Shown here one piece after another: positions 3,951 through 28,835 of a stretch of DNA of 41,554 nt. The stretch covers positions 1-41,554 of the forward strand of contig JAJYSM010000026.1 in the NCBI GenBank assembly GCA_021793575.1. Direction: 5' to 3'. The translations under genes were made by a program, and so were the position numbers. The stretch's first letter is position 1. The number at the start of each line of letters is the position of its first letter. Under the pieces are notes generated by a model. That model saw nothing but the letters and a program-made list of their open reading frames with translations. It was not told where the DNA came from and did no database searches. Source of the stretch: Pseudomonadota bacterium. GTDB taxonomy: Bacteria; Pseudomonadota; Gammaproteobacteria; Xanthomonadales; Rhodanobacteraceae.

Positions 3951-6900
3951 ATGTTTGCAACGCTCGTGCTGAACGCGGTTCTGGCGGCGGCCTCGTTGAC
4001 GCGCGTGGCGACCGCTGCGCCAGGCGTGGCCGCACCCGCGCCGGCAGCCGCGGCGACGCCGACGGTGCTGGCCACGCCCCAGTTCCGCCGCTACGGCGTC
4101 GCCGATGGCCTGCCCAGCGGACCCATCTACGCGGTGACCCAGGACCGCCACGGCCTGATGTGGTTTGCCACCGCCAGCGGCCTGGTGCGCTACGACGGGG
4201 TGAGCTTCCGGGTGTTCCGGCATGCGCTGGACGACCCGCAGTCGATGCCCGCCGGGGCGATCTACACGCTGTTCGTCGACCGCGACAACTGCGTGTGGGC
4301 CGGCAGCATTTCCAACGGGCTGACGGTGTACCAGCAGTCGGAGCATCGCTTCCGGCACTGGGAGCATGACCCCGCCGACCCGGCCAGCCTGGCCAGCGAC
4401 GAAGTGTGGAGCATCGCGCAGACGCCCGATGGAGCACTGTGGCTGGCCACCAACGCCGGCCTGGACCGCATGCGTCCGCACGGCACCGGCTTCGATCACA
4501 TCCCGCTCGCTGTCGATGGCACGCACGCCGCGTCGTTCGGCCCGGTTCGTGCGCTGCTGGCCGGGCCCGACGGCCGCCTGTGGATCGGCGCGGAAAGCGG
4601 CCTGTACCTGCGCGACGCCGGCGGCCGCATCCATCGCGTGCCGGTGGATCCGGCCTTTCACGGCAAGCTGGGCAAGGTCTGGCATATCGACGGTGGCCAC
4701 GGCGAGGTGCGGGTGGCGGTCAGCGGCGGCCTGCTGGTGATCGGTGCCGACGGCGTGGCGCGACCGCTGGCCGGCGCCCAACTGGCCTCGCTGCGGATAC
4801 TCAGCAGCACGCGCGACCGCCAGGGGCGGCTGTGGATCGGTGGCGCCGACGGACTGCTGCTGGATACCGGCGACGGCACACTGCAGTCGATCACCGGCCA
4901 GCCGCTGCTGCCCGGTGGCCTGCCCGGCAACAATATCTGGCAGACCGCGCTGGATCGCGAAGGCGGGCTCTGGGTCACCTTCGACGATTCCAACGTCGCC
5001 TATCTGCCGCCGGGCTGGAATGGCTTCACCCGCTTCACCCACATTCCGGACGATCCGGCCAGCCTCCTCAACATCAGCGCCGCGACCCTGCTCACCGCGC
5101 GCGATGGTCGGCTGTGGGTGGGCGGCAATGATGGCTGGATCGACAAGCTGGATGCGACCAGCGGGCGCGTGCAACATATCGTGCGGGACGTCCACGGACA
5201 TGTCGCGTCGATGGCCGAGGACGCGCACGGTGGCCTGTGGATCAACGTGCCCGGCGGGCTGCGGCTGCTGGCTCACGGCGTCCTGCACACCATTCGCCTG
5301 GATGCCGCGCACGTCACCCGGCCGGTGCTGCTCGCCAGCGCCGGCGACGGGCGCATCTATCTCGCCTCGTGGGGCCAGGGCCTGTTTGCGATCGATCCGG
5401 TCAGCCTGGCGATCACGCCGGTGCCGATGGCTGCGGCATCGGACGATGCCCGGCTGCCCGAGCAGCTCACCTTCAACAAGGGCAATCTCTGGTATGCCAG
5501 CAATGGCGGCCTGCTGCGGCTGAACGAGCACACCGGCACGCTCGACTTCGTCGCCGGCGTACCGCAGGAAGAGATCACCTCGTTCGCCTGCAACGCCCAC
5601 GGTTTCTGGACCGCCACCGGGCGCGCCCTGAATCACTACCGCTACGCCGACGGCCGCGCCACCCTGATCGACAGCGTCGACATCAGTCGCGAGGCGTTCA
5701 CGCCGGATATCACCTCGCTGCGCGTCGACCGCCAGGGCCAGCTGTGGGTGTTCGCCAATCCCGGCCTGTTCCGGCTCGACCAACGCAGCCACCGCTTCAC
5801 GGCGTTCGGACCGGCGCAGGGCCTGTCGAATGCCCAGTTCGGCGGCGGCGTGACCGCGGTGGCGCCGGACGGCATGATCCTGGCGCCCAATGCCGGTGGC
5901 GTGGTGGGATTCCAGCCGCTGCGGCTGCAGGCCCCGAGCCACGCCAGTCCAGCCCCGCCGCCGCCACTCACGTTGACCCGGCTGAGCGTGCGCCGCGGCG
6001 GCCAGACCCACCTGCTGCCGCTGGAAGCCGGTCCGGTGCGCCTGGGCTGGCGCGATCGCGACCTGAGCGTGAGCGTGCGGGTCGCCTCGTTCGTCAGTCC
6101 GCTCGCCAATCACTACCGCTTCCGCCTGCAGGGTTTCGACAGCGGCTGGGTCGAGGTGGATCATCGCGGCGAGCGCGAATTCGCCGGGCTGGCGGCCGGC
6201 CATTACACGCTGGAAGTGCAAGGAGCCGGTGCCGACGGCGTATGGGGCAGCCTGGCGCAGCCGCTGCGGATCGACGTGCAGGCACCGCCATGGGCACGCT
6301 GGTGGGCATGGCTGGCGTATGCGCTGGTACTGCTCGCCAGCGCCGCGCTGATCCTGCGCGGCTGGCGCCGGCGACTGGCCCAGCGCCATCGGATGCAAAT
6401 GATCGAACAGCAACGGCAGCTGGCGGAGGCGGCCAGCGCCGCCAAGACGCAGTTCCTGGCGACCCTCAGCCACGAGATCCGCACCCCGATGACCGGGGTG
6501 ATGGGCATGGCCGAGCTGATGCTGGCCACGCCGCTCAGCCCGCTGCAGCACGACTACACCCGCGCCATGCAGCGCTCCGGCGGCATGCTGCTGAAACTGC
6601 TCAACGACGCGCTGGATCTGGCCCGCATCGAGGCCGGCCGGCTGGAGCTGGAGCCGGCGCCGTTCGACCCGCGCCAGCTGGTCGAGGATGTGACCCAGCT
6701 CGAACAGGGGCTGGCACACCTCAAGGGCATCCGCTTCGTGCTGGAGGTGGCCGACGACCTGCCGCGGCGGCTGATCGGCGATGCGGTGCGGATCAAGCAG
6801 GTGCTGCTGAACCTGGCCAACAACGCGCTGAAGTTCACCGAGCACGGCAGCGTGACATTGCGTGCACAGCGCACCGCGACCGGCCTGCAGTTCAGCATCA

Positions 6901-7562
6901 GCGACACCGGGCCGGGCATCCCCGAGGCCAGCCAGGTGCGGTTGTTCCAGCGCTTCGAGCAGGCCGACGGGCCGCAGCGGCGCGCCGGCAGCGGGCTGGG
7001 GCTGGCGATCTGCCGCGAGCTGGTCGACATGATGGGCGGCAGCATCGAGCTGGAATCACGGCTGGCGCACGGCAGCACGTTCCGCGTGCGGCTGCCGCTG
7101 GCCGAGCCGCCGCCACCGGCGCAGTCCGCGTCCGACACCGCCGGCGTGTTGCCGCAGCGGCTGCTGCTGGTGGAGGACGACGCCATCGTGGCGGCGGTGA
7201 TCCGCGGCCTGCTGGAGCAGCAGGGGCATGCCGTCTGCCACGTCGGCAACGGGCTGGCTGCGCTGGCCGAGCTGGCGCATGCCGGCTTCGATGCGGTGCT
7301 GCTGGATCTGGACCTGCCCGGCGTGGACGGCTTCCAGATCGCCCGGCTGATCCGCCAGCGCGAACACGCCGGCCAGCGCGTGCCGATCATTGCGGTCACC
7401 GCGCGCTCGGGCAGCGAGGACGAGGCGCGCTCACGCGCGGCGGGCATGGACGGCTTTCTGCGCAAGCCGCTGAGCGGCGAGCAGCTGGCCGATGCGCTGG
7501 TGCAGGCCTGCGCGACGCTGCCCGCCGAGAGCCACGCTGAGGCGGTGGCCGACCCTGCCTGA
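3951..7562 (+). CDS. hybrid sensor histidine kinase/response regulator with two-component propeller and Y_Y_Y domains
   Basis: A 1203-residue protein. ATG 3951 was chosen because it gives a signal peptide (MFATLVLNAVLAAASL) and is preceded by GGTGGGGGA. Residues ~40-670 hold many propeller repeats of the form DRxGxLWxGxxxGLxxxD. A Y_Y_Y domain follows (~690-775), then a membrane helix at ~783-805. Next come HisKA with phosphoacceptor His841 (SHEIRTP), HATPase_c (NNALKF, DTGPGIP, GSGLGLAI), and a C-terminal receiver with VLLD at Asp1119 and TARSGSEDE. The large periplasmic sensor resembles Bacteroidetes-type hybrid systems, but there is no C-terminal AraC helix-turn-helix, so output must pass to a partner. 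No regulator or transporter gene lies next to it, so the signal cannot be guessed. Confidence 0.93.
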   Translation: MFATLVLNAVLAAASLTRVATAAPGVAAPAPAAAATPTVLATPQFRRYGVADGLPSGPIYAVTQDRHGLMWFATASGLVRYDGVSFRVFRHALDDPQSMPAGAIYTLFVDRDNCVWAGSISNGLTVYQQSEHRFRHWEHDPADPASLASDEVWSIAQTPDGALWLATNAGLDRMRPHGTGFDHIPLAVDGTHAASFGPVRALLAGPDGRLWIGAESGLYLRDAGGRIHRVPVDPAFHGKLGKVWHIDGGHGEVRVAVSGGLLVIGADGVARPLAGAQLASLRILSSTRDRQGRLWIGGADGLLLDTGDGTLQSITGQPLLPGGLPGNNIWQTALDREGGLWVTFDDSNVAYLPPGWNGFTRFTHIPDDPASLLNISAATLLTARDGRLWVGGNDGWIDKLDATSGRVQHIVRDVHGHVASMAEDAHGGLWINVPGGLRLLAHGVLHTIRLDAAHVTRPVLLASAGDGRIYLASWGQGLFAIDPVSLAITPVPMAAASDDARLPEQLTFNKGNLWYASNGGLLRLNEHTGTLDFVAGVPQEEITSFACNAHGFWTATGRALNHYRYADGRATLIDSVDISREAFTPDITSLRVDRQGQLWVFANPGLFRLDQRSHRFTAFGPAQGLSNAQFGGGVTAVAPDGMILAPNAGGVVGFQPLRLQAPSHASPAPPPPLTLTRLSVRRGGQTHLLPLEAGPVRLGWRDRDLSVSVRVASFVSPLANHYRFRLQGFDSGWVEVDHRGEREFAGLAAGHYTLEVQGAGADGVWGSLAQPLRIDVQAPPWARWWAWLAYALVLLASAALILRGWRRRLAQRHRMQMIEQQRQLAEAASAAKTQFLATLSHEIRTPMTGVMGMAELMLATPLSPLQHDYTRAMQRSGGMLLKLLNDALDLARIEAGRLELEPAPFDPRQLVEDVTQLEQGLAHLKGIRFVLEVADDLPRRLIGDAVRIKQVLLNLANNALKFTEHGSVTLRAQRTATGLQFSISDTGPGIPEASQVRLFQRFEQADGPQRRAGSGLGLAICRELVDMMGGSIELESRLAHGSTFRVRLPLAEPPPPAQSASDTAGVLPQRLLLVEDDAIVAAVIRGLLEQQGHAVCHVGNGLAALAELAHAGFDAVLLDLDLPGVDGFQIARLIRQREHAGQRVPIIAVTARSGSEDEARSRAAGMDGFLRKPLSGEQLADALVQACATLPAESHAEAVADPA

Positions 7563-21498: not shown

Positions 21499-22038
21499 TC
21501 AGCCGGCCACGTCGGCCTGCTCCAGCGCCACCGCCACCGCGTGGATCACCGTGGCGATGCGCGCCGCGCTCTGGATCGGCTGCGCCGAGAGGCCGTGCTT
21601 GCGCAAAGTTTTCTCGTGCGAGGCGAGGCAGGCGCCGCAGCCGTTGATGGCCGAGACCGCCAGGCAGGCCAGCTCGAAGTCGATCTTGTCGCCGCCGGGG
21701 TTGCTCATCGCGTTCATGCGCAGGCCGGCGCGCAGGGTGCCGTACTCGGGCTCTTCCACCAGATGCACGAAGCGGTAGTAGATGTTGTTCATGCCCATGA
21801 GGGTGGCGGCCACGCGGGCGCCATTGAGCGCCTCCGGGCTGGCGTGCAGGGCGGCCTCGGCGGCGATCGCGGCGGTCAGCGGCTTGTGGCGCGCGGCGAT
21901 GGCGCAGGCCAGCGCGATCACCATGATCTGCGTCTGGCTCAGGCCCGGCGCGCCGCCCGGGGTCAGCACGGACTCCAGGTTCAGGCGCAGGTCCTTGGCG
22001 TAATCGGGCAGCTGGCTCTTGAGATCGGCAAGACTCAT
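21499..22038 (-). CDS. ahpD: alkyl hydroperoxidase AhpD (carboxymuconolactone decarboxylase family)
   Basis: A 179-residue protein. The catalytic set of AhpD is intact and correctly spaced: Glu122, Cys134, Cys137 (NGCGACLASHE) and His141. This matches the Glu-x11-Cys-x2-Cys-x3-His arrangement of the Mycobacterium tuberculosis protein. AhpD reduces AhpC, taking electrons from a lipoyl adaptor in mycobacteria. GAGG lies upstream of ATG 22038. It follows ahpC on the same strand, but a strong intrinsic terminator lies between the two stop/start points, so its expression may depend on read-through or on an internal promoter. Confidence 0.94.
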   Translation of the reverse strand: MSLADLKSQLPDYAKDLRLNLESVLTPGGAPGLSQTQIMVIALACAIAARHKPLTAAIAAEAALHASPEALNGARVAATLMGMNNIYYRFVHLVEEPEYGTLRAGLRMNAMSNPGGDKIDFELACLAVSAINGCGACLASHEKTLRKHGLSAQPIQSAARIATVIHAVAVALEQADVAG

Positions 22039-22077
22039 GGAACACCTCGGGCAATGCGGATGTGAAAAATGCGGCTC

Positions 22078-22113
22078 AAAAAAACCGGCGGCGAGGCGAA
22101 CCTCGCCACCGGT
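22078..22113 (-). terminator. Rho-independent terminator after ahpC
   Basis: On the minus strand a 13-bp GC-rich stem (accggtggcgagg with its complement, one mismatch) closes on a TTCG loop (22097-22100). A run of seven T residues (22084-22078) follows directly. A second weaker hairpin (GCGTCAG/CTGACGC, 22126-22156) precedes it. The structure lies between the ahpC stop (22183) and the ahpD start (22038). Confidence 0.88.
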
Positions 22114-22182
22114 GGGGTCACCCGCGCGTCAGCGGGGGAGAGAGCGACTCTGACGCACAGGCTGTGGCAAGCGCCGGACGGA

Positions 22183-22722
22183 TCAGGCGACCTTGAGGGT
22201 GTCTTCGCCCTGGCTCCAATTGCAGGGGCACAGCTCGTCGGTCTGCAGCGCGTCGAGCACGCGCAGCACTTCGGCCGGGTTGCGGCCGACCGAGCCGTCG
22301 GTGACATAGACGAAGCGGATCACGCCTTCCGGGTCGACCAGGAAGGTGGCGCGCTGCGCCACGCCGTCCTCGGTGAGGATGCCGAGCGCGTTGGTCAGCT
22401 CCTTCTTGATGTCGGCCAGCATCGGGAACTTCAGCTCGCGCAGGTCCTTGTGGTCCTTGCGCCAGGCCAGGTGCACGAACTCGCTGTCGGTGCTGGCGGC
22501 CAGCACCTGGCAGTCGCGGTCGGCGAACTGGCCGTTGACGTCGCTGAAGCCCTTGATCTCGGTCGGGCAGACGAAGGTGAAGTCCTTCGGGTAGAAGAAC
22601 ACGCACAGCCATTTGCCCTTGTAGGTGGCGTTGTCGATGTTGCTGAATGCCTTGTCCAGGCTCTCGATCGAGACGGTGGCGGGGACGTTGAAATGGGGAA
22701 ACTTGTCGCCGATGGTCAGCAT
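22183..22722 (-). CDS. ahpC: peroxiredoxin AhpC (mycobacterial-type three-cysteine form)
   Basis: A 179-residue typical 2-Cys peroxiredoxin. The peroxidatic cysteine is Cys52 in FTFVCPTE. The C-terminal ELCPCNW supplies two cysteines, Cys165 and Cys167, as in the M. tuberculosis AhpC that works with AhpD rather than AhpF. It reduces H2O2, organic hydroperoxides and peroxynitrite in the cytosol. ATG 22722 is chosen because AAGGAG lies at the right distance and the protein starts MLTIGDKFPHF like the family. The gene diverges from oxyR and has an OxyR operator and promoter upstream, so peroxide induction is expected. Confidence 0.96.
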   Translation of the reverse strand: MLTIGDKFPHFNVPATVSIESLDKAFSNIDNATYKGKWLCVFFYPKDFTFVCPTEIKGFSDVNGQFADRDCQVLAASTDSEFVHLAWRKDHKDLRELKFPMLADIKKELTNALGILTEDGVAQRATFLVDPEGVIRFVYVTDGSVGRNPAEVLRVLDALQTDELCPCNWSQGEDTLKVA

Positions 22723-22786
22723 GGAATGCTCCTTTGCAAGGGGTGGTAGAAGTCGTGAACGGCCGCCAAAGCGGTGCCAGCCACAC

Positions 22787-22815
22787 AAGATAAGGCGATC
22801 TCTTGCATTGCACAA
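22787..22815 (-). promoter_or_regulatory. ahpC promoter
   Basis: On the minus strand the -35 is TTGTGC (22815-22810) and the -10 is TATCTT (22792-22787), with exactly 17 bp between. The -35 directly abuts the OxyR operator at 22816-22852, the usual geometry for OxyR activation by contact with RNA polymerase. The leader to the ahpC ATG is about 60 nt. Confidence 0.7.
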
Positions 22816-22852
22816 ATTGATTGTTACCATCGGCATCATAGGCATTGACTAT
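22816..22852. promoter_or_regulatory. OxyR operator between ahpC and oxyR
   Basis: Four tetramers at the OxyR spacing: ATTG-N7-CCAT-N7-ATAG-N7-CTAT. The oxyR-proximal half (22838-22852) is a perfect ATAG-N7-CTAT. The other half has one mismatch in each tetramer. This is the 37-bp layout known for OxyR (ATAG N7 CTAT N7 ATAG N7 CTAT). It abuts the ahpC -35 and lies 20 bp from the oxyR start codon, so activation of ahpC and autoregulation of oxyR are both plausible. Confidence 0.85.
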
Positions 22853-22872
22853 CAATCATCCGGAGGCAAGCC

Positions 22873-23844
22873 ATGAACCTGCGCGATCTCCAGTATCTGG
22901 TCGCCCTGGCCGAGCACCGGCACTTCGGCCGTGCCGCCGAGGCATGCTTCGTCAGCCAGCCGACCCTCTCCACGCAGATCAGGAAGCTGGAGGACGAACT
23001 GGGCGTGCCGCTGGTCGAGCGCACGCCGCGCAAGGTGCTGCTGACCGAGGTGGGACGCGACATCGCCGAGCGCGCCCGCGAGGTGCACCACGGCATCGAG
23101 CAGATCCGCGCGGTGGCCCGGCGCACGCTCGATCCGGAATCGGGCACGGTGCGGCTGGGCATCTTTCCCACGCTGGGGCCGTACCTGCTGCCGCACGCGC
23201 TGCCGCTGGTGCGGGCGGCGTTTCCACGGCTGGAGCTGCTGCTGGTCGAGGAGAAGACCGAGGCGCTGCTGCGGCTGCTGCGCGAGGGCAAGCTGGACGC
23301 CTGCATCGTGGCGCTGCCGCTGCACGAGGACAGCCTGCGCAGTGAGCTGCTGTTCGAGGAGCCGTTCCTGCTGGCGGTGTCGCACGCGCACCCGCTGGCG
23401 CACCGGCACGGCCAGCTGAAGCTGGCGGACCTGTCCAAGCAGAACCTGCTGCTGCTGGAGGACGGCCACTGCCTGCGCGATCAGGCGCTGGAGGTGTGCC
23501 ATCTGGCCGGCGCCGGCGAGCGCAGCGGTTTTCGCGCCACCAGCCTGGAGACGCTGCGGCAGATGGTGGCGGCCAACGTCGGCATCACCCTGCTGCCGGC
23601 GCTGGCGGTGCGCCCGCCGGTGGCGCCGCTGGAAAACCTGCACCTGATCGAGTTCAAGGGCCATCCGCCGAGCCGCCGCGTGGCGCTGGTGTGGCGCAAG
23701 AGTTCGGCGATGGGTGCCTTCCTGCAGCGGCTCGCCGCGGTGATCCGGCAGCTGCCCGCCGACCTGCTCGACACCCGCTCCGCCGCCACGCCGCCGGTCG
23801 CGGTGACGGCCAAAGCGGCCCGACGCCGACCAGTGCGGCCATAG
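22873..23844 (+). CDS. oxyR: peroxide-sensing LysR-type regulator OxyR
   Basis: A 323-residue LysR-family regulator. The N-terminal winged helix-turn-helix contains FGRAAEACFVSQPTLSTQIRK. The sensor domain has the redox pair Cys200 and Cys209 in DGHCLRDQALEVC, equivalent to Cys199 and Cys208 of E. coli OxyR, which form a disulfide on H2O2 exposure. GGAGG sits 6 nt upstream of ATG 22873. The C-terminal ~25 residues are Pro/Ala/Arg-rich and extend past the usual end. The gene diverges from ahpC. Its stop codon is part of a second OxyR-like operator. Confidence 0.96.
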   Translation: MNLRDLQYLVALAEHRHFGRAAEACFVSQPTLSTQIRKLEDELGVPLVERTPRKVLLTEVGRDIAERAREVHHGIEQIRAVARRTLDPESGTVRLGIFPTLGPYLLPHALPLVRAAFPRLELLLVEEKTEALLRLLREGKLDACIVALPLHEDSLRSELLFEEPFLLAVSHAHPLAHRHGQLKLADLSKQNLLLLEDGHCLRDQALEVCHLAGAGERSGFRATSLETLRQMVAANVGITLLPALAVRPPVAPLENLHLIEFKGHPPSRRVALVWRKSSAMGAFLQRLAAVIRQLPADLLDTRSAATPPVAVTAKAARRRPVRP

Positions 23845-23877
23845 CCGCGCGCTATGACCATCATCGGCACAATCAAT
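23841..23877. promoter_or_regulatory. second OxyR-type operator, upstream of the rubrerythrin gene
   Basis: ATAG-N7-CTAT-N7-ATCG-N7-CAAT, the same 37-bp geometry as the ahpC-oxyR site. The left half is a perfect ATAG-N7-CTAT, and the right half has one mismatch per tetramer. The promoter-proximal end shares an exact 11-mer (acaatcaattt, 23869-23879) with the equivalent end of the ahpC site (22814-22824 inverted). The first four bases include the oxyR stop codon. A candidate promoter abuts the right end. Confidence 0.75.
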
Positions 23878-23906
23878 TTCATTGCCGCCGCGGCGAGCGC
23901 TACGCT
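23878..23906 (+). promoter_or_regulatory. candidate OxyR-dependent promoter for the rubrerythrin gene
   Basis: A weak -35 (TTCATT, 23878-23883) and weak -10 (TACGCT, 23901-23906) are spaced by 17 bp. The -35 touches the end of the operator at 23841-23877, as at ahpC. Poor core elements next to an activator site are what an activator-dependent promoter looks like. The leader to ATG 23973 is about 60 nt. The exact start is uncertain. Confidence 0.5.
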
Positions 23907-23972
23907 CGGGGCTTGCGGTCGCCATGATCGCCTTCGCATTCTCCTCCCAGCCGCACGTCACGAGGTGTTGTC

Positions 23973-24392
23973 ATGAGCAGCCTGAAAGGTTCCAAGACCG
24001 AGGAAAACCTGAAGTACGCCTTCGCCGGCGAATCCCAGGCCAACCGCCGCTACCTGTACTTCGCCACCAAGGCCGACGTCGAGGGCTACAACGATGTGGC
24101 CAGCGTGTTCCGCTCCACCGCCGAGGGCGAGACCGGCCACGCGCACGGCCATCTCGAATACCTGGAGGAGGTCGGCGACCCGGCCACCGGGCTGCCGTTC
24201 GGCGACACCGCCAGCAATCTGAAATCGGCGATCGCCGGTGAAACGCACGAGTACACCGACATGTATCCGGGCATGGTCAAGGCCGCCCGCGACGAGGGCT
24301 TCGACGAGATCGCCGACTGGTTCGAGACGCTGGCCAAGGCCGAGCGCTCGCACGCCAACCGCTTCCAGCGCGCGCTGGACGAGCTGAAGTAG
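23973..24392 (+). CDS. rubrerythrin-type diiron protein without rubredoxin domain
   Basis: A 139-residue four-helix-bundle diiron protein. The rubrerythrin ligand set is complete: Glu20 (AFAGESQAN), Glu53 and His56 (EGETGHAH), Glu90 and Glu93 (AGETHEY), Glu124 and His127 (AERSHANRF). Full rubrerythrins have a C-terminal rubredoxin domain to receive electrons and reduce H2O2 to water. That domain is absent here, so an external electron donor is needed. CGAGGTG lies before ATG 23973. The gene is directly downstream of oxyR and upstream of the Fe-S protein gene, which could supply electrons (inference). Confidence 0.93.
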
Positions 24393-24398
24393 CGCCCC

Positions 24399-24428
24399 CG
24401 AAGCGGCGGCCCGCGCGCCGCCGCTTCG
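24399..24428 (+). terminator. strong hairpin after the rubrerythrin gene
   Basis: A perfect 12-bp GC-rich stem (cgaagcggcggc and its complement) with a six-base loop starts 7 nt after the stop codon. No T-run follows, so it may act as a weak terminator or protect the mRNA 3' end rather than stop transcription fully. Confidence 0.5.
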
Positions 24429-24471
24429 CCGTCTCATACGAAATTGCGATCAAATATCGAGAATTATCAGA

Positions 24472-24543
24472 TCGTCATTCCCGCGAAAGCGGGAATCCAT
24501 CGTCTCTCAACGGCATTGGATCCCCGCTTTCGCGGGGATGACC
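24472..24543. repeat. REP-like pair of inverted ATTCCC-N8-GGGAAT hairpins
   Basis: Copy 1 (24472-24500) contains attcccgcgaaagcgggaat, a 10-bp-arm palindrome. Copy 2 (24515-24543) is nearly the same unit in the opposite orientation with CCCC/GGGG in place of TCCC/GGGA. They are separated by about 14 bp, so the whole element is a symmetric hairpin pair. The core matches the ATTCCC-N8-GGGAAT pattern of Neisseria dRS3 and of REP elements widespread in proteobacteria. Such pairs commonly mark operon junctions and can end transcription in either direction. Confidence 0.85.
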
Positions 24544-24686
24544 AACCAATGCTATTTGGCTGTTCGTTTGAAGAATCTCATCATTGGTATCAGCGGGCCA
24601 TTTCAGCGGACCATCGTGGGCGCGGCCAGCGCGTCCATCGGCGGCTCACCGGCTTCGTATCGCGTCTTCGTACCAGGGAACCACGC

Positions 24687-26054
24687 ATGGCCGAGCAACC
24701 GCCCGTCGATTTGTCAGACGCCACGCCCGGCGCCCGCGAGGGCGGCGTACATGCGCCCACCCGCCATCCGCTGGGCTGGACCGAGCCGGGCTTCTGGGAG
24801 CAGGCGCAGCTCGACGCCGAGCTGCAGCGCGTGTTTGACGCCTGCCACGGCTGCCGCCGCTGCGTCAGCCTGTGCCACGCCTTTCCCACGCTGTTCGACC
24901 TGATCGACAACTCCTCCACCATGGAAGTGGACGGCGTGGCCGCGTCCGACTACCCCAAGGTGACCGAGCACTGCTACCTGTGCGACCTGTGCTACCAGAC
25001 CAAGTGCCCGTACATTCCGCCGCATCCGTGGGCGATCGACTTCCCGCACCTGATGCTGCGCGCCAAGGCCGTGGCATTCCGCCGCGACGGTGCGCCACTG
25101 TCGGCGAAGATCCTCTCCAGCACCACCGCAGTGGGCAAGCTGGCCTCGATCCCGGTGCTGGTGCAGGTGGTGAACGCAGCCAACCGCAACCCCGTCGCGC
25201 GCAAGCTGCTGGAGAAAACCCTCGGCGTCGACGCCGATGCGCGCGTGCCCGACTACCACTCGCCCGGCGCGCGCAGGCGATTGCGTGATCTCGACGGCCG
25301 CGGCGCGGCCACCCCCGCCGGCCGTACCAGCGGCAGGCTGGCGCTGTTCGCCACCTGCTACTGCGACCACTCGGCGCCTGGCGTGGTGGAGGATCTGGCC
25401 GCCGTGCTGCAGCACAACGCGATCCCGGTGAAACTGGTGCCGCGCGAGGTGTGCTGCGGCATGCCCAAGCTGGAGCTCGGCGACCTCGACAGCGTGGCCC
25501 GGTACAAGGCACAGAACATCCCCGTGCTGGCCGCGCTGGTGCGCGAGGGCTTCGACCTCACCGCGGCGGTGCCTTCGTGTGTGCTGATGTTCAAGCAGGA
25601 GCTGCCGCTGATGTTCCCCGACGACGCCGAGGTGGCACTGGTCAAGGCGCACTTCTTCGACCCGTTCGAATACCTGATGGAGCGCCATCGCGACGGTCTG
25701 CTCGCCACCGATTTCCGGCAGTCACTGGGCAAGGTGGCGTGGCAGGTGCCGTGCCATCAGCGGGTGCAGAACATCGGCCCGAAGACGCGCGACATCCTCA
25801 AGCTGATTCCCGACACCGAGGTGGTGACGATCGAGCGCTGCTCCGGTCACGACGGCACCTACGGCGTCAAGAAAAAAACCTACGCGATCTCGCGCAAGAT
25901 CGCCAAACCGGTGGAAAAACGCGTCGCGCAGGCGCAGGCTGACCACTTCACCAGCGACTGCCCGATGGCCGGCGGCCACATCGCCCACGGGCTGCACGAC
26001 CAGCCGGGCGCTGAGCATCCGCTGAGCCTGCTGCGCCAGGCCTACGGCATCTGA
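24687..26054 (+). CDS. GlpC/HdrD-like Fe-S oxidoreductase subunit with two CCG domains
   Basis: A 455-residue soluble protein. The N-terminal ferredoxin-like domain has two [4Fe-4S] motifs: Cys53-x2-Cys56-x2-Cys59-x3-Cys63 and Cys96-x2-Cys99-x2-Cys102-x4-Cys107. Two cysteine-rich CCG domains follow (FATCYCDHS with EVCCGMPKLE, and VPCHQRVQNIG with ERCSGHDGTYG), as in GlpC and the HdrD/HdrB heterodisulfide reductase subunits. No flavin or dehydrogenase partner is nearby, so it is not a normal glp operon gene. ATG 24687 has AGGGAA upstream. Its neighbours are a rubrerythrin and DUF3501, a grouping I know from other proteobacteria, which suggests an electron-transfer role in peroxide defence. Confidence 0.88.
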   Translation: MAEQPPVDLSDATPGAREGGVHAPTRHPLGWTEPGFWEQAQLDAELQRVFDACHGCRRCVSLCHAFPTLFDLIDNSSTMEVDGVAASDYPKVTEHCYLCDLCYQTKCPYIPPHPWAIDFPHLMLRAKAVAFRRDGAPLSAKILSSTTAVGKLASIPVLVQVVNAANRNPVARKLLEKTLGVDADARVPDYHSPGARRRLRDLDGRGAATPAGRTSGRLALFATCYCDHSAPGVVEDLAAVLQHNAIPVKLVPREVCCGMPKLELGDLDSVARYKAQNIPVLAALVREGFDLTAAVPSCVLMFKQELPLMFPDDAEVALVKAHFFDPFEYLMERHRDGLLATDFRQSLGKVAWQVPCHQRVQNIGPKTRDILKLIPDTEVVTIERCSGHDGTYGVKKKTYAISRKIAKPVEKRVAQAQADHFTSDCPMAGGHIAHGLHDQPGAEHPLSLLRQAYGI

Positions 26055-26104
26055 GCGGCACGCGCAGCGCAGGCGCCATTCCCACCCGGTATTGATCGAC
26101 CGAC

Positions 26105-26686
26105 ATGAACAAGCTGACCCGCGATGACCTGCTGACCCTGGAAGCTTATGCGCGCGAACGCCCGGCGCTGCGTGGCGAGGTGATCGCGCACAAGCGGCGC
26201 CGCACCGTCCAGTTGGGCGAACACCTCAGCGTGGTGTTCGAGGACCGGCGCAGCGTGCAGTACCAGATCCAGGAAATGCTGCGCATCGAGCGCATCTTCG
26301 AGGCCACTGGCATCCAGGACGAACTGGACGCCTACAACCCGCTGATTCCCGATGGCAGCAACCTCAAGGCGACCCTGCTGGTGCAGTACGACGACCCCGA
26401 GCAGCGCGCGCGCGAATTGCAGAAGCTGCGCGGGCTAGAGGATCAGATCGAACTGCAGGTGGGCGATGACCGTGTCAGCGCGATTGCCGACGAGGACATG
26501 GAACGCAGCAACGAACAGAAAACCTCGGCGGTGCACTTCCTGCGCTTCGAACTGAGCCCGGCGATGCTCGCCGTGTGGAACGACTACCGCCGCCCGGTAC
26601 TCATGCGCAGCACGCATCCGGCCTGCCGCGTCGAGGCTGCGCTGATACCCGCGCAGCGCGACGCGCTGGCGGCCGACTTTCGCTGA
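26105..26686 (+). CDS. DUF3501 family protein
   Basis: A 193-residue cytosolic protein starting MNKLTRDDLLTLEAYARERP, the usual opening of DUF3501. Other conserved segments are HKRRRTVQLGEHLSVVFEDR, QYQIQEMLRIERIF and HFLRFEL. It has a single cysteine (Cys179) and no recognisable cofactor motif. The family has no known activity. It follows the Fe-S protein gene after 50 bp, and this pairing recurs across proteobacteria in my recollection, so it may be an assembly, regulatory or electron-transfer partner of that protein. Confidence 0.85.
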   Translation: MNKLTRDDLLTLEAYARERPALRGEVIAHKRRRTVQLGEHLSVVFEDRRSVQYQIQEMLRIERIFEATGIQDELDAYNPLIPDGSNLKATLLVQYDDPEQRARELQKLRGLEDQIELQVGDDRVSAIADEDMERSNEQKTSAVHFLRFELSPAMLAVWNDYRRPVLMRSTHPACRVEAALIPAQRDALAADFR

Positions 26687-26688
26687 GC

Positions 26689-27288
26689 ATGCGCAAACTC
26701 TGGTTTGGTGTCGCCCTGCTGCTGGTGTTGTGGGGCGCGACATCGTGGTGGCATGGTCGCCCGTTGCAGCCGCCGCCCGGCGTGCTGGCGCCCGACGCCC
26801 CGCTGCAGGTCAACCTCGAGCGCGGCGCGTCCCTGCAGCAGGGTGACGTCACCCTCACCACCCGCGCGCACTTCGACCTCACCGCCCGCGTGCTGTCGCG
26901 CAAGGATTATTCCTTCGGCGCCGACGCCAGACTCATCCCTGAGGATCTCGCGCTGGGCTGGGGCCGCATGTCCGACAGCGCGGTGCTGGCGCAGATCGAC
27001 ATCCGCCAGTCCGACCGCTACTACTACTGGCGCGTGAAGCAGTTTCCGATCCCGCGCCGCGAGATCGAAACCTCCAGCGCCAACATGCACATGATCCCCG
27101 CCGATGCCGGCGTGTTGCATCAGCTGCGCCAGGTGCGCCCGGGCGAGGTGGTACACATCGAAGGCTTCCTGGTCGACGCCAGCCGTCCGGACGGCTGGCA
27201 CTGGAACACCTCGATGACGCGCGAGGACACCGGCGCCGGCGCCTGCGAACTGGTCTACGTGGAGAGCATCGACCGCGTCGATCGCTGA
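26689..27288 (+). CDS. membrane-anchored protein of unknown function, coupled to DUF3501
   Basis: A 199-residue protein with one N-terminal membrane helix (LWFGVALLLVLWGATSWW, ~residues 4-21) and a periplasmic domain. ATG 26689 lies 2 bp after the DUF3501 stop, so the two are cotranscribed and probably translationally coupled. Visible elements are ARVLSRKDYSFGADARLIPEDLALGWG, RQSDRYYYWR and PGEVVHIEGFLVDASRPDGWHW. It has a single Cys near the C-terminus. I do not assign a family. The IEGF and YYYWR segments would suit an OB- or SH3-like beta fold (guess). Confidence 0.75.
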   Translation: MRKLWFGVALLLVLWGATSWWHGRPLQPPPGVLAPDAPLQVNLERGASLQQGDVTLTTRAHFDLTARVLSRKDYSFGADARLIPEDLALGWGRMSDSAVLAQIDIRQSDRYYYWRVKQFPIPRREIETSSANMHMIPADAGVLHQLRQVRPGEVVHIEGFLVDASRPDGWHWNTSMTREDTGAGACELVYVESIDRVDR

Positions 27289-27368
27289 TCGCGCGACGTC
27301 GCGCGCGCCGGTATCGACCATTCATGGCCATGCGGTGACAATCGTCGCTCGCCTCCCGATGCGCCGCC

Positions 27369-27887
27369 ATGCCCGACACCGACCGCAGCACCCGCCCGCC
27401 GCCCACCGAGACGACCGAATCGCGGCACCGGGTCGGCCTGCGCGTGATTGCGGTGTACAAGGCGGTGCAGACGCTGGCGCTGGTGCTGGTGGCGCTGGAA
27501 GCCTTCCGTCTGAATCGCACCGAGAACTTCAATCAGCTGGTGCACTGGCTGCAGCATCTCTCGCTGGCTGGCAGCAACAGCCTGCGCTGGCAGCTGGTTG
27601 GCGCGCTGATGGCGATGGGGCCGAGCAGGTTTGTGGCGATCGGCAGCGTGGCGCTGGCGTATGCGGCGCTGTTTGCCACCGAAGGCATCGGCCTGTGGCT
27701 GCGCAAGTATTGGGCGGAATGGTTCACGGTGATCGCCACCGGCTCGCTGATTCCACTGGAGCTGTACGAGACGCTGCTGCGCTTCGGCTGGATCAAGCTG
27801 GCCACGCTGCTGGCCAACGCGGCGATCGTGGCGTACCTGGTGCGCGTCGCGCTGCAGTCGCGCGCCGCCCGGCATGCGCGGGATTGA
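27369..27887 (+). CDS. DUF2127 membrane protein
   Basis: A 172-residue polytopic protein with about four membrane helices (around residues 25-43, 82-105, 112-132 and 135-160). The start RVGLRVIAVYKAVQTLALVL and the GLWLRKYWAEWFTVIATGSLIPLELYE segment are typical of DUF2127, a family of unknown function. It is separated from the preceding gene by 80 bp that include a 16-bp perfect palindrome (27290-27305). It converges with the transporter gene at 27927. Confidence 0.85.
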   Translation: MPDTDRSTRPPPTETTESRHRVGLRVIAVYKAVQTLALVLVALEAFRLNRTENFNQLVHWLQHLSLAGSNSLRWQLVGALMAMGPSRFVAIGSVALAYAALFATEGIGLWLRKYWAEWFTVIATGSLIPLELYETLLRFGWIKLATLLANAAIVAYLVRVALQSRAARHARD

Positions 27888-27926
27888 GCGGCTGCATCGG
27901 CCGGCTGGCCTTATCCGCGCAGCCGC

Positions 27927-28835
27927 TCAGACTTCGTGATGGATCGCCTCGGCCGGCAGCCCGATGGCCGCGCTGCCGCGCTGCGGCAGCAACTCCACCA
28001 GATACATCGCCGCCAGCACCAGCGCGCCGCCGGTCAGCATGCGCCAGCTCAGCACATCGGTGCCGAACAGCACCGCGAACGCGGCGGCGAACACCGGCTC
28101 GGTGGTCATCACGATCGCCGCGCGCGCGGCCGGCATGTGTGCCTGCGCCCAGGTCTGCATCAGCATCGCGCCGGCCCCGGCGACCAGCGCCATGTACAGT
28201 ACCGCCAGCCACGCGCGGCGATCGGGCGGCAGCGTGAGCCCATGCGGCAAAGTGGCGAGCAGGCAGACCGCGGCGATCGCCACCATCTGCACCGCCGACA
28301 AGCCGAACACGTCGCCCGACCGCGCCCACTGGCCCAGGCCGACGATGTGCAGCCCGTACAACGCGGCCGAAGCCAGCGTCAGCCACACGCCGAGGTTCAC
28401 CGAGAGCCCGTTGAGCGTGAGCAGCGCCAGCCCCGCGGTGGCCAGCAGCACCGCCAGCCACACGCCGGCGCCCATCCGCTGGCGCAGCAGCAGCAGCGCA
28501 AGGATTGGCGTGAACACCACATACATGCCGGTGACGAAGCCGCTGACGCTGGGCGCGATCAACGCCAGGCCCCAGGTCTGCAACAGCTGGCCGACACCGT
28601 AGACCAGCCCCAGCAGCAGGCCGCGCCCGATCTGCCGCCGGCCCAGCCGCAGCACCGGACGCGCGAACAGCGCCAGCATCACCGCTGCCGCCAGCAGAAA
28701 GCGCACGGCAAGGAAATCCGCCACCGGCATGCGCGCCAGCACGTCCTTGATCAGCACGAAGGTGGAACCCCACACCGCCGTCATCGCCAGCAGGCCGAGA
28801 GTCGCGAGAGTGGCAAGGCGGTGATGGGTGGTCAT
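27927..28835 (-). CDS. DMT-superfamily (EamA) transporter
   Basis: A 302-residue protein with ten predicted membrane helices in two EamA repeats. The first repeat has AVWGSTFVLIKDVL and VRFLLAA. The second ends with MTTEPVFAAAFAVLFG and a final helix, the usual drug/metabolite exporter pattern. The substrate cannot be inferred. ATG 28835 is chosen (MTTHHRLATLATLG). A 17-codon upstream extension is encoded by an intergenic tandem repeat and is not coding. It lies downstream of the glycosyltransferase gene on the same strand (106-bp gap). Confidence 0.92.
   Translation of the reverse strand: MTTHHRLATLATLGLLAMTAVWGSTFVLIKDVLARMPVADFLAVRFLLAAAVMLALFARPVLRLGRRQIGRGLLLGLVYGVGQLLQTWGLALIAPSVSGFVTGMYVVFTPILALLLLRQRMGAGVWLAVLLATAGLALLTLNGLSVNLGVWLTLASAALYGLHIVGLGQWARSGDVFGLSAVQMVAIAAVCLLATLPHGLTLPPDRRAWLAVLYMALVAGAGAMLMQTWAQAHMPAARAAIVMTTEPVFAAAFAVLFGTDVLSWRMLTGGALVLAAMYLVELLPQRGSAAIGLPAEAIHHEV

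Follow-up and report, generated by a model that had tools for sequence, protein, structure and literature searches.

What is the rubrerythrin gene block that follows oxyR in JAJYSM010000026.1, and is it a new peroxide-defence system? This contig of 41,554 nucleotides, the window of this study, belongs to a member of the Rhodanobacteraceae (Gammaproteobacteria, Xanthomonadales; assembly GCA_021793575.1). Its genes run in the order ahpD and ahpC (both on the reverse strand), oxyR, rubrerythrin (rbr, protein RBR), a GlpC-like Fe-S protein, DUF3501, a protein called P4 here, and a DUF2127 protein. A first-pass annotation of the DNA described a rubrerythrin without its rubredoxin domain, then the Fe-S protein, DUF3501 and an anchored protein 2 bp further on, and read them as a candidate undescribed system. 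Sequence and profiles confirmed this layout, including the position of P4. oxyR lies immediately upstream, as the annotation also had it; ahpC, which it joined to oxyR, is divergent from that gene.

The locus belongs to a known system, the aerobic-type rubrerythrin set RBR-RFO-DUF3501. Cardenas, Quatrini and Holmes defined the aerobic-type rubrerythrin lineage without rubredoxin in 2016, and the relevant passages of their article co-localise it with DUF3501 and a COG0247 protein that they named RFO, the triple set being found in 185 of 4461 genomes (PMC5114695). These passages compare RFO with HdrD and propose that it compensates for the lost rubredoxin domain. In the window, RBR is likewise without rubredoxin, and a COG0247/GlpC-like RFO and DUF3501 (PF12007) adjoin it. 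The undescribed-system reading was rejected because that article defines the set and makes the same electron-transfer proposal; the set has also been shown with oxyR in Sideroxydans (PMC7852563, in the passage on that organism). The observation is sound and the core idea reasonable, and both concern a published system. Overall, the locus is quite probably explained as this peroxidase set, here under predicted OxyR control.

RBR, RFO and DUF3501 form a conserved, same-strand, co-occurring set. DUF3501 was found in 54 of the 147 genomes of the host family. Across 369 genomes of the class, with RFO counted at E ≤ 1e-60, DUF3501 and RFO each occurred in 160; 156 genomes held both, 4 DUF3501 alone and 4 RFO alone. 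Among the unpaired cases, G518 has RBR and an RFO situated 152 bases away from the end of its contig, the DUF3501 of G390 is interrupted where the contig ends, the pieces in G475 are broken, the G594 genome is 72% complete, and G427, G522 and G622 carry RFO without DUF3501 or an aerobic-type RBR. The order OxyR>RBR>RFO>DUF3501 was observed in 47 of 53 host-family loci, which represent every family genome with DUF3501 except the window's own; P4 came next in 17 of them and not in 30. The other six comprised three RBR>RFO>DUF3501 loci, one RBR>DUF3501 locus (L099, with a stop inside DUF3501) and two short contigs (L086, L100). Outside the order, RBR>RFO>DUF3501 was present in 40 of 40 class loci, one of which (L189) has DUF3501 split into two matches. 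These loci were hand-picked from match lists, mostly for RFO and DUF3501 sharing one contig, so the count supports the gene order and the presence of RBR, not the frequency of separation. A set of 80 named loci, the best of 586 confirmed, came from patterns covering only the N-terminal half of RFO; 71 of the 80 show the same order, five of the remaining nine are cut by contig ends and four are without a neighbour. The named loci overlap the earlier sets: at a minimum, L231-L236 and L238 come from family genomes and L242, L243 and L261 from class genomes.

Because the identical order recurs across dozens of genomes, the arrangement in the window is not due to chance. The annotation proposed a survey of co-occurrence and order and regarded linkage within a single genus as telling against it; the linkage proved to be class-wide. 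Of the four-family order that it expected, RBR, RFO and DUF3501 are conserved, and P4 does not follow the triad. An OxyR-like gene (at least 35% identity) was nearby in 2 of the 40 picked class loci, all of which keep the gene order. Therefore, the triad is general, and its seat beside oxyR is a feature of this order, with sporadic examples elsewhere, among them Gallionella (L285) and L262. As a separate observation, DUF3501 or RFO is apparently broken or split in the triad copies at L099, L189, L313 and L324 (G066, G345, G475).

A conserved OxyR-type box precedes rbr in this order, and OxyR control is predicted from it. The scan used the consensus ATAG-N7-CTAT-N7-ATAG-N7-CTAT, which equals its own reverse complement. 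Two sites in the window reached at least 13 of 16 bases, one in the ahpC-oxyR gap and one before rbr, and neither score was attained in 5000 dinucleotide shuffles of the respective region. Between oxyR and rbr, a box of at least 12/16 was found in 46 of 50 order-level loci, 76-106 bp 5' of the start codon (all but L064, L098, L136 and L139). It is retained in loci with oxyR 0.5-1.9 kb distant, indicating that it belongs to rbr and not to the end of oxyR. When the 200 bp upstream of rbr are taken, 49 of the 53 loci from the order carry such a box (0.05 expected). So do 11 of the 12 named relatives L229-L240 (0.01 expected), a group in which seven or more repeat genomes of the first set. Control stretches inside RFO (51 loci of 200 bp and 40 loci of 250 bp) and oxyR-P4 junctions without the triad (25 loci) scored 10 or less, and the positive control, the ahpC-oxyR gap, reached at least 12/16 in 24 of 26 loci. 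By this consensus, the first gene of the set is preceded by a conserved four-part box, which supports, as a prediction, the earlier placement in an OxyR regulon. No report of a box before the triad was found in the literature on rubrerythrin and OxyR, in a search that covered few subscription papers.

RFO carries two [4Fe-4S] motifs, C53/56/59/63 and C96/99/102/107, in agreement with the annotation; its claim of two CCG motifs had to be corrected to one. The sole true CCG motif consists of C224, C256-C257-G and C298. The second reads C356-H, C385-S386-G-H388-D-G and C425, with serine in place of one tandem cysteine. RFO thus departs from the two-CCG type of HdrB, HdrD and GlpC, having an intact first CCG and CSGHDG as the second, and it scores 199 bits against the GlpC profile (NCBIfam PRK11168), below the cut-off of 278. 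An alignment of 51 RFO sequences joined that of the window with 50 relatives (50-79% identical) that remained when 83 extracted sequences were thinned by similarity. All 51 share cysteines 53, 56, 59, 63, 96, 99, 102, 107, 224, 256, 257, 298, 356, 385 and 425 as well as H357, S386 and H388; at position 389, 47 of them have D and 4 have N. The second motif in the 80 named loci is CSGH(D/N)G in 79, CAGHDG in 1 and CCG in none. G522 and G622, two genomes of one genus with just a distant rubrerythrin (46 and 45%), encode RFO relatives (46 and 47%) that have lost H357, S386 and H388 (CIGAGG and CAGSGC); the three motif-2 cysteines, the first CCG and the two [4Fe-4S] motifs can still be recognised in them. 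The RFO relatives at L310, L311 and L312 come from genomes in which neither DUF3501 nor an aerobic-type rubrerythrin was detected; motif 2 is altered in L311 and L312 and intact in L310.

In RBR, a profile search showed that the protein ends with the ferritin-like domain and that the rubredoxin-like domain is absent. Against the full-length rubrerythrin model NF045767 it scores 138.5 bits, below the cut-off of 200, with the C-terminal part of the model unmatched, and it also matches the ferritin-like PF00210. Its structural relatives are PDB 9onm, 4di0 and 8fuh and sulerythrin (1j30). E20, E53 and H56, the diiron ligands, are kept in the alignment. The top PDB matches are presumably Burkholderia pseudomallei rubrerythrins. 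This agrees with PMC12585693, which reports Mn, Co and Fe binding by BpRbr and describes the activity of the protein as yet to be explored. The solved relative of DUF3501, 3fjv, is labelled just 'uncharacterized novel protein', and the invariant residues of DUF3501 include many charged ones and no cysteine. RBR adjoins DUF3501 without RFO in genome G375, and such pairs are described for Thermoproteales in the relevant passage of PMC5114695. RFO is therefore not required for the tie between DUF3501 and RBR, and these pairs suggest that DUF3501, a regular partner in the set, is most likely an adaptor or a maturation factor. An RFO-DUF3501 fusion has been published for Nitrosomonas; no natural fusion was found in the 17 loci, of 30, that were tested for orientation or in the 75 of 80 named loci with DUF3501 downstream.

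A mechanism can be proposed for the set. H2O2 would oxidise OxyR, and oxidised OxyR would bind the box and turn on rbr together with RFO and DUF3501 behind it. The diiron site of RBR would then reduce H2O2 to water. RFO, with its two N-terminal [4Fe-4S] motifs and GlpC-type C-terminal half, would take over from the lost rubredoxin domain as electron donor to RBR, with ferredoxin, a thiol and a quinol as candidate primary sources, and its altered second motif (CH...CSGHDG...C) is the favoured candidate for the contact with RBR. The peroxide-defence role put forward in the annotation is supported, and its view of the Fe-S protein as the likely electron supplier also stands as an inference, one made in PMC5114695 as well (in the passage on RFO). 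Several observations weigh against this scheme. Outside the order, just 6 of 39 class loci (0.32 expected) and 19 of 60 other named loci (0.43 expected) have the box, so OxyR control is not universal. RFO is not the sole donor everywhere, given the RBR-DUF3501 pairs without it. The RFO motif is intact (CSGHNG) in G427, yet no RBR or DUF3501 was found in that assembly. In B. pseudomallei, the entries concerned list bpss1837-1839 (hypothetical, ferredoxin, rubrerythrin) as sigma-E dependent, a route other than that of OxyR (PMC4175613). A point in favour is that these three consecutive genes appear side by side among those raised under oxidative stress (3.37, 3.31 and 3.36) in the same article. 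If bpss1837 and bpss1838 are DUF3501 and RFO, as seems plausible, these data would back a stress role in another organism and not OxyR control.

Other explanations concern what RFO and RBR do. RFO might be a disulfide (thiol) reductase like HdrB or HdrD, whose special cluster feeds or drains thiols and does not reduce RBR directly. The GlpC/Hdr-type CCG domain in its profile match and the published comparison with HdrD fit this idea, but Hdr-type chemistry depends on complete CCG motifs, and the CSGH in every aligned RFO, never CCG in the named loci, makes it improbable, even though the intact first CCG limits the force of that argument. About equally improbable is that RBR mainly handles metal or oxygen (Fe/Mn storage, ferroxidase activity or O2 binding) and that the set guards iron pools. 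The metals bound by BpRbr and the PF00210 match favour such a role; the OxyR-type box, the oxyR/ahpC setting and the retention of E20, E53 and H56 speak against it. A bolder version of the peroxidase reading makes RFO a distinct class of Fe-S donor, in which a site of three cysteines plus an invariant Ser and His, CH...CSGH(D/N)G...C, has replaced one CCG motif and holds a site-differentiated cluster dedicated to aerobic, OxyR-controlled reduction of the RBR diiron site. The loss of H357, S386 and H388 in G522 and G622, which have neither DUF3501 nor aerobic-type RBR, agrees with it. G427 keeps the motif without a detected RBR or DUF3501, and because of this counter-case the tie between motif 2 and RBR is no more than a hint; the dedicated donor is a doubtful proposal, made slightly less probable by G427.

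The remaining alternative joins all four proteins in one membrane-coupled complex with P4 as anchor. The spacing of 2 bp after DUF3501 in the window and the adjacency of the two genes in 19 of the 24 family genomes with both would suit it. However, P4 occurs in 90 of the 147 family genomes, 66 of which have no DUF3501, and 30 of the 54 with DUF3501 are without P4; the two coincide in 24 genomes against 33 expected (odds ratio 0.33, p 0.003, kinship uncorrected). The 40 P4 loci that do not adjoin DUF3501 comprised 24 OxyR>P4, 1 OxyR>RBR>P4, 13 with P4 alone, 1 double P4 and 1 without a match. In 20 of the 24 OxyR>P4 loci the gap is under about 50 bp, and it is 1.3-3 kb in L042, L059, L063 and L065. 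These counts make the four-protein complex very unlikely. The role of P4 as membrane coupler, assigned in the annotation, is not supported, and P4 was rejected as a fourth subunit.

In other families of the order, a same-strand OxyR lies upstream of P4 in 11 of 20 loci. AhpC and AhpF (730-815 bits for AhpF, NCBIfam cut-off 502.9) precede OxyR>P4 in five of these loci; oxyR and P4 are 568 bp apart in L135, 1690 bp in L138 and less than 50 bp in L137, L141 and L142. A Xanthomonas ahpC, ahpF-oxyR-orfX locus was reportedly described in 1997 by Loprasert and by Mongkolsuk. There, orfX comes after oxyR as P4 does in these five relatives; the window differs in having ahpC with ahpD, and the triad between oxyR and P4. 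Because the OxyR>P4 layout recurs without the triad and resembles the Xanthomonas locus, P4 is an old neighbour of oxyR outside the triad set, the triad here lying between them. P4 is a candidate OrfX, likened by position only, and in the window is probably co-transcribed. It has no match in Pfam or NCBIfam and no relative in the PDB (best E 0.37), and its 75 homologues gave scattered weak Pfam matches of at most 3 members each (best E 0.0051). A clear hydrophobic segment, at our cut-off, was present in 50 of the 75, with the N-flank more positive in 21 of these 50. Extra cysteines at both ends in 10 of 10 loci (L135-L144) hint at a periplasmic domain. At L042, a catalase-peroxidase-like gene (4915-7170), presumably KatG by its N-terminus, lies between oxyR and P4 on the opposite strand. 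In the turned locus of L045, P4 occurs twice (6836 and 12393), the copies being about 5.5 kb apart and 68-69% identical to that of the window.

Table 1. Features of the window around the rubrerythrin locus.
Feature	Position	Strand	Evidence or remark
ahpD	21499-22038	-	sequence and profile search
ahpC, 2-Cys peroxiredoxin, divergent from oxyR	22183-22722	-	PF00578, E 1.1e-36
OxyR-type box, ahpC-oxyR gap	22816-22852		14/16 consensus bases; 14 reached by 0/5000 dinucleotide shuffles
oxyR	22873-23844	+	LysR domains PF00126 and PF03466; NF008361 (OxyR) 325.8 bits, slightly below cut-off 329
OxyR-type box before rbr	23841-23877		14/16; overlaps oxyR stop codon; 95 bp 5' of rbr ATG
rbr, aerobic-type rubrerythrin, 139 aa, no rubredoxin domain	23973-24392	+	PF02915, E 9.9e-32
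Strong GC hairpin immediately 3' of rbr	24399-24428	+	z -5.81 for whole 294-nt spacer
REP-like inverted repeat, rbr-RFO spacer	24475-24541		two 25-base arms, 2 mismatches
RFO, GlpC-like Fe-S oxidoreductase, 455 aa	24687-26054	+	two [4Fe-4S] motifs, one CCG, one CSGHDG
DUF3501	26105-26686	+	PF12007, E 2.7e-67, 226.9 bits (cut-off 25); solved relative 3fjv, E 2.2e-54
P4, predicted membrane-anchored protein, 199 aa	26689-27288	+	starts 2 bp after DUF3501; Pfam/NCBIfam: no match
DUF2127 membrane protein, 3' of P4	27369-27887		position after P4

OxyR carries its characteristic C...C pair in GHCLRDQALEVC. The hairpin and the REP-like repeat in the rbr-RFO spacer suggest that the level of RFO may be reduced relative to RBR; allowing 3 mismatches at most, no second copy of the repeat was found in the window. 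An Rfam scan of the window gave nothing above gathering scores, and no sigma-70-like promoter was found by a scan of 22600-28000. The DUF2127 protein had no match across 93 mapped loci. ahpC adjoins ahpD in the window (21499-22722); elsewhere in the order, some families have ahpC-ahpF-oxyR-P4 instead.

Aerobic bacteria widely encode rubrerythrins that lack rubredoxin, and such proteins extend to mitochondria; in Andalucia all three proteins occur with predicted mitochondrial targeting, and homologues occur in other eukaryotes, according to the passages on these proteins in PMC7050145. The conserved box offers a handle on regulation of the set, and the set-specific cysteine motif one on the donor site. 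The case of P4, which belongs with the oxyR neighbourhood and not with the set, shows how little a 2-bp gap in a single genome says about function.

Compared with known proteins, RFO has the domain plan of E. coli GlpC (b2243; anaerobic glycerol-3-phosphate dehydrogenase subunit C), in which all 15 RFO motif cysteines are also cysteine. GlpC has CCGIAG and TDCETC where RFO has CSGHDG and SDCPMA, leaving RFO with two cysteines fewer. The passage of PMC5114695 on the CCG domain is silent about a changed motif, unlike the present analysis, and its main text, as distinct from its supplements, contains no mention of OxyR or Xanthomon-, whereas the window has an oxyR setting. The cluster is also present in Acidihalobacter, as stated in the section concerned of PMC7760498. 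In Sideroxydans lithotrophicus, a member of another bacterial order, the triad occurs together with oxyR as in the window, and the passage on it mentions no binding site (PMC7852563). As far as the passages on the 2016 system go, it and the window share the same three families, their clustering, the loss of rubredoxin and the proposed electron role of RFO. To this known set, the present locus adds the conserved OxyR-type box, the corrected cysteine motif of RFO and the reassignment of the fourth gene.

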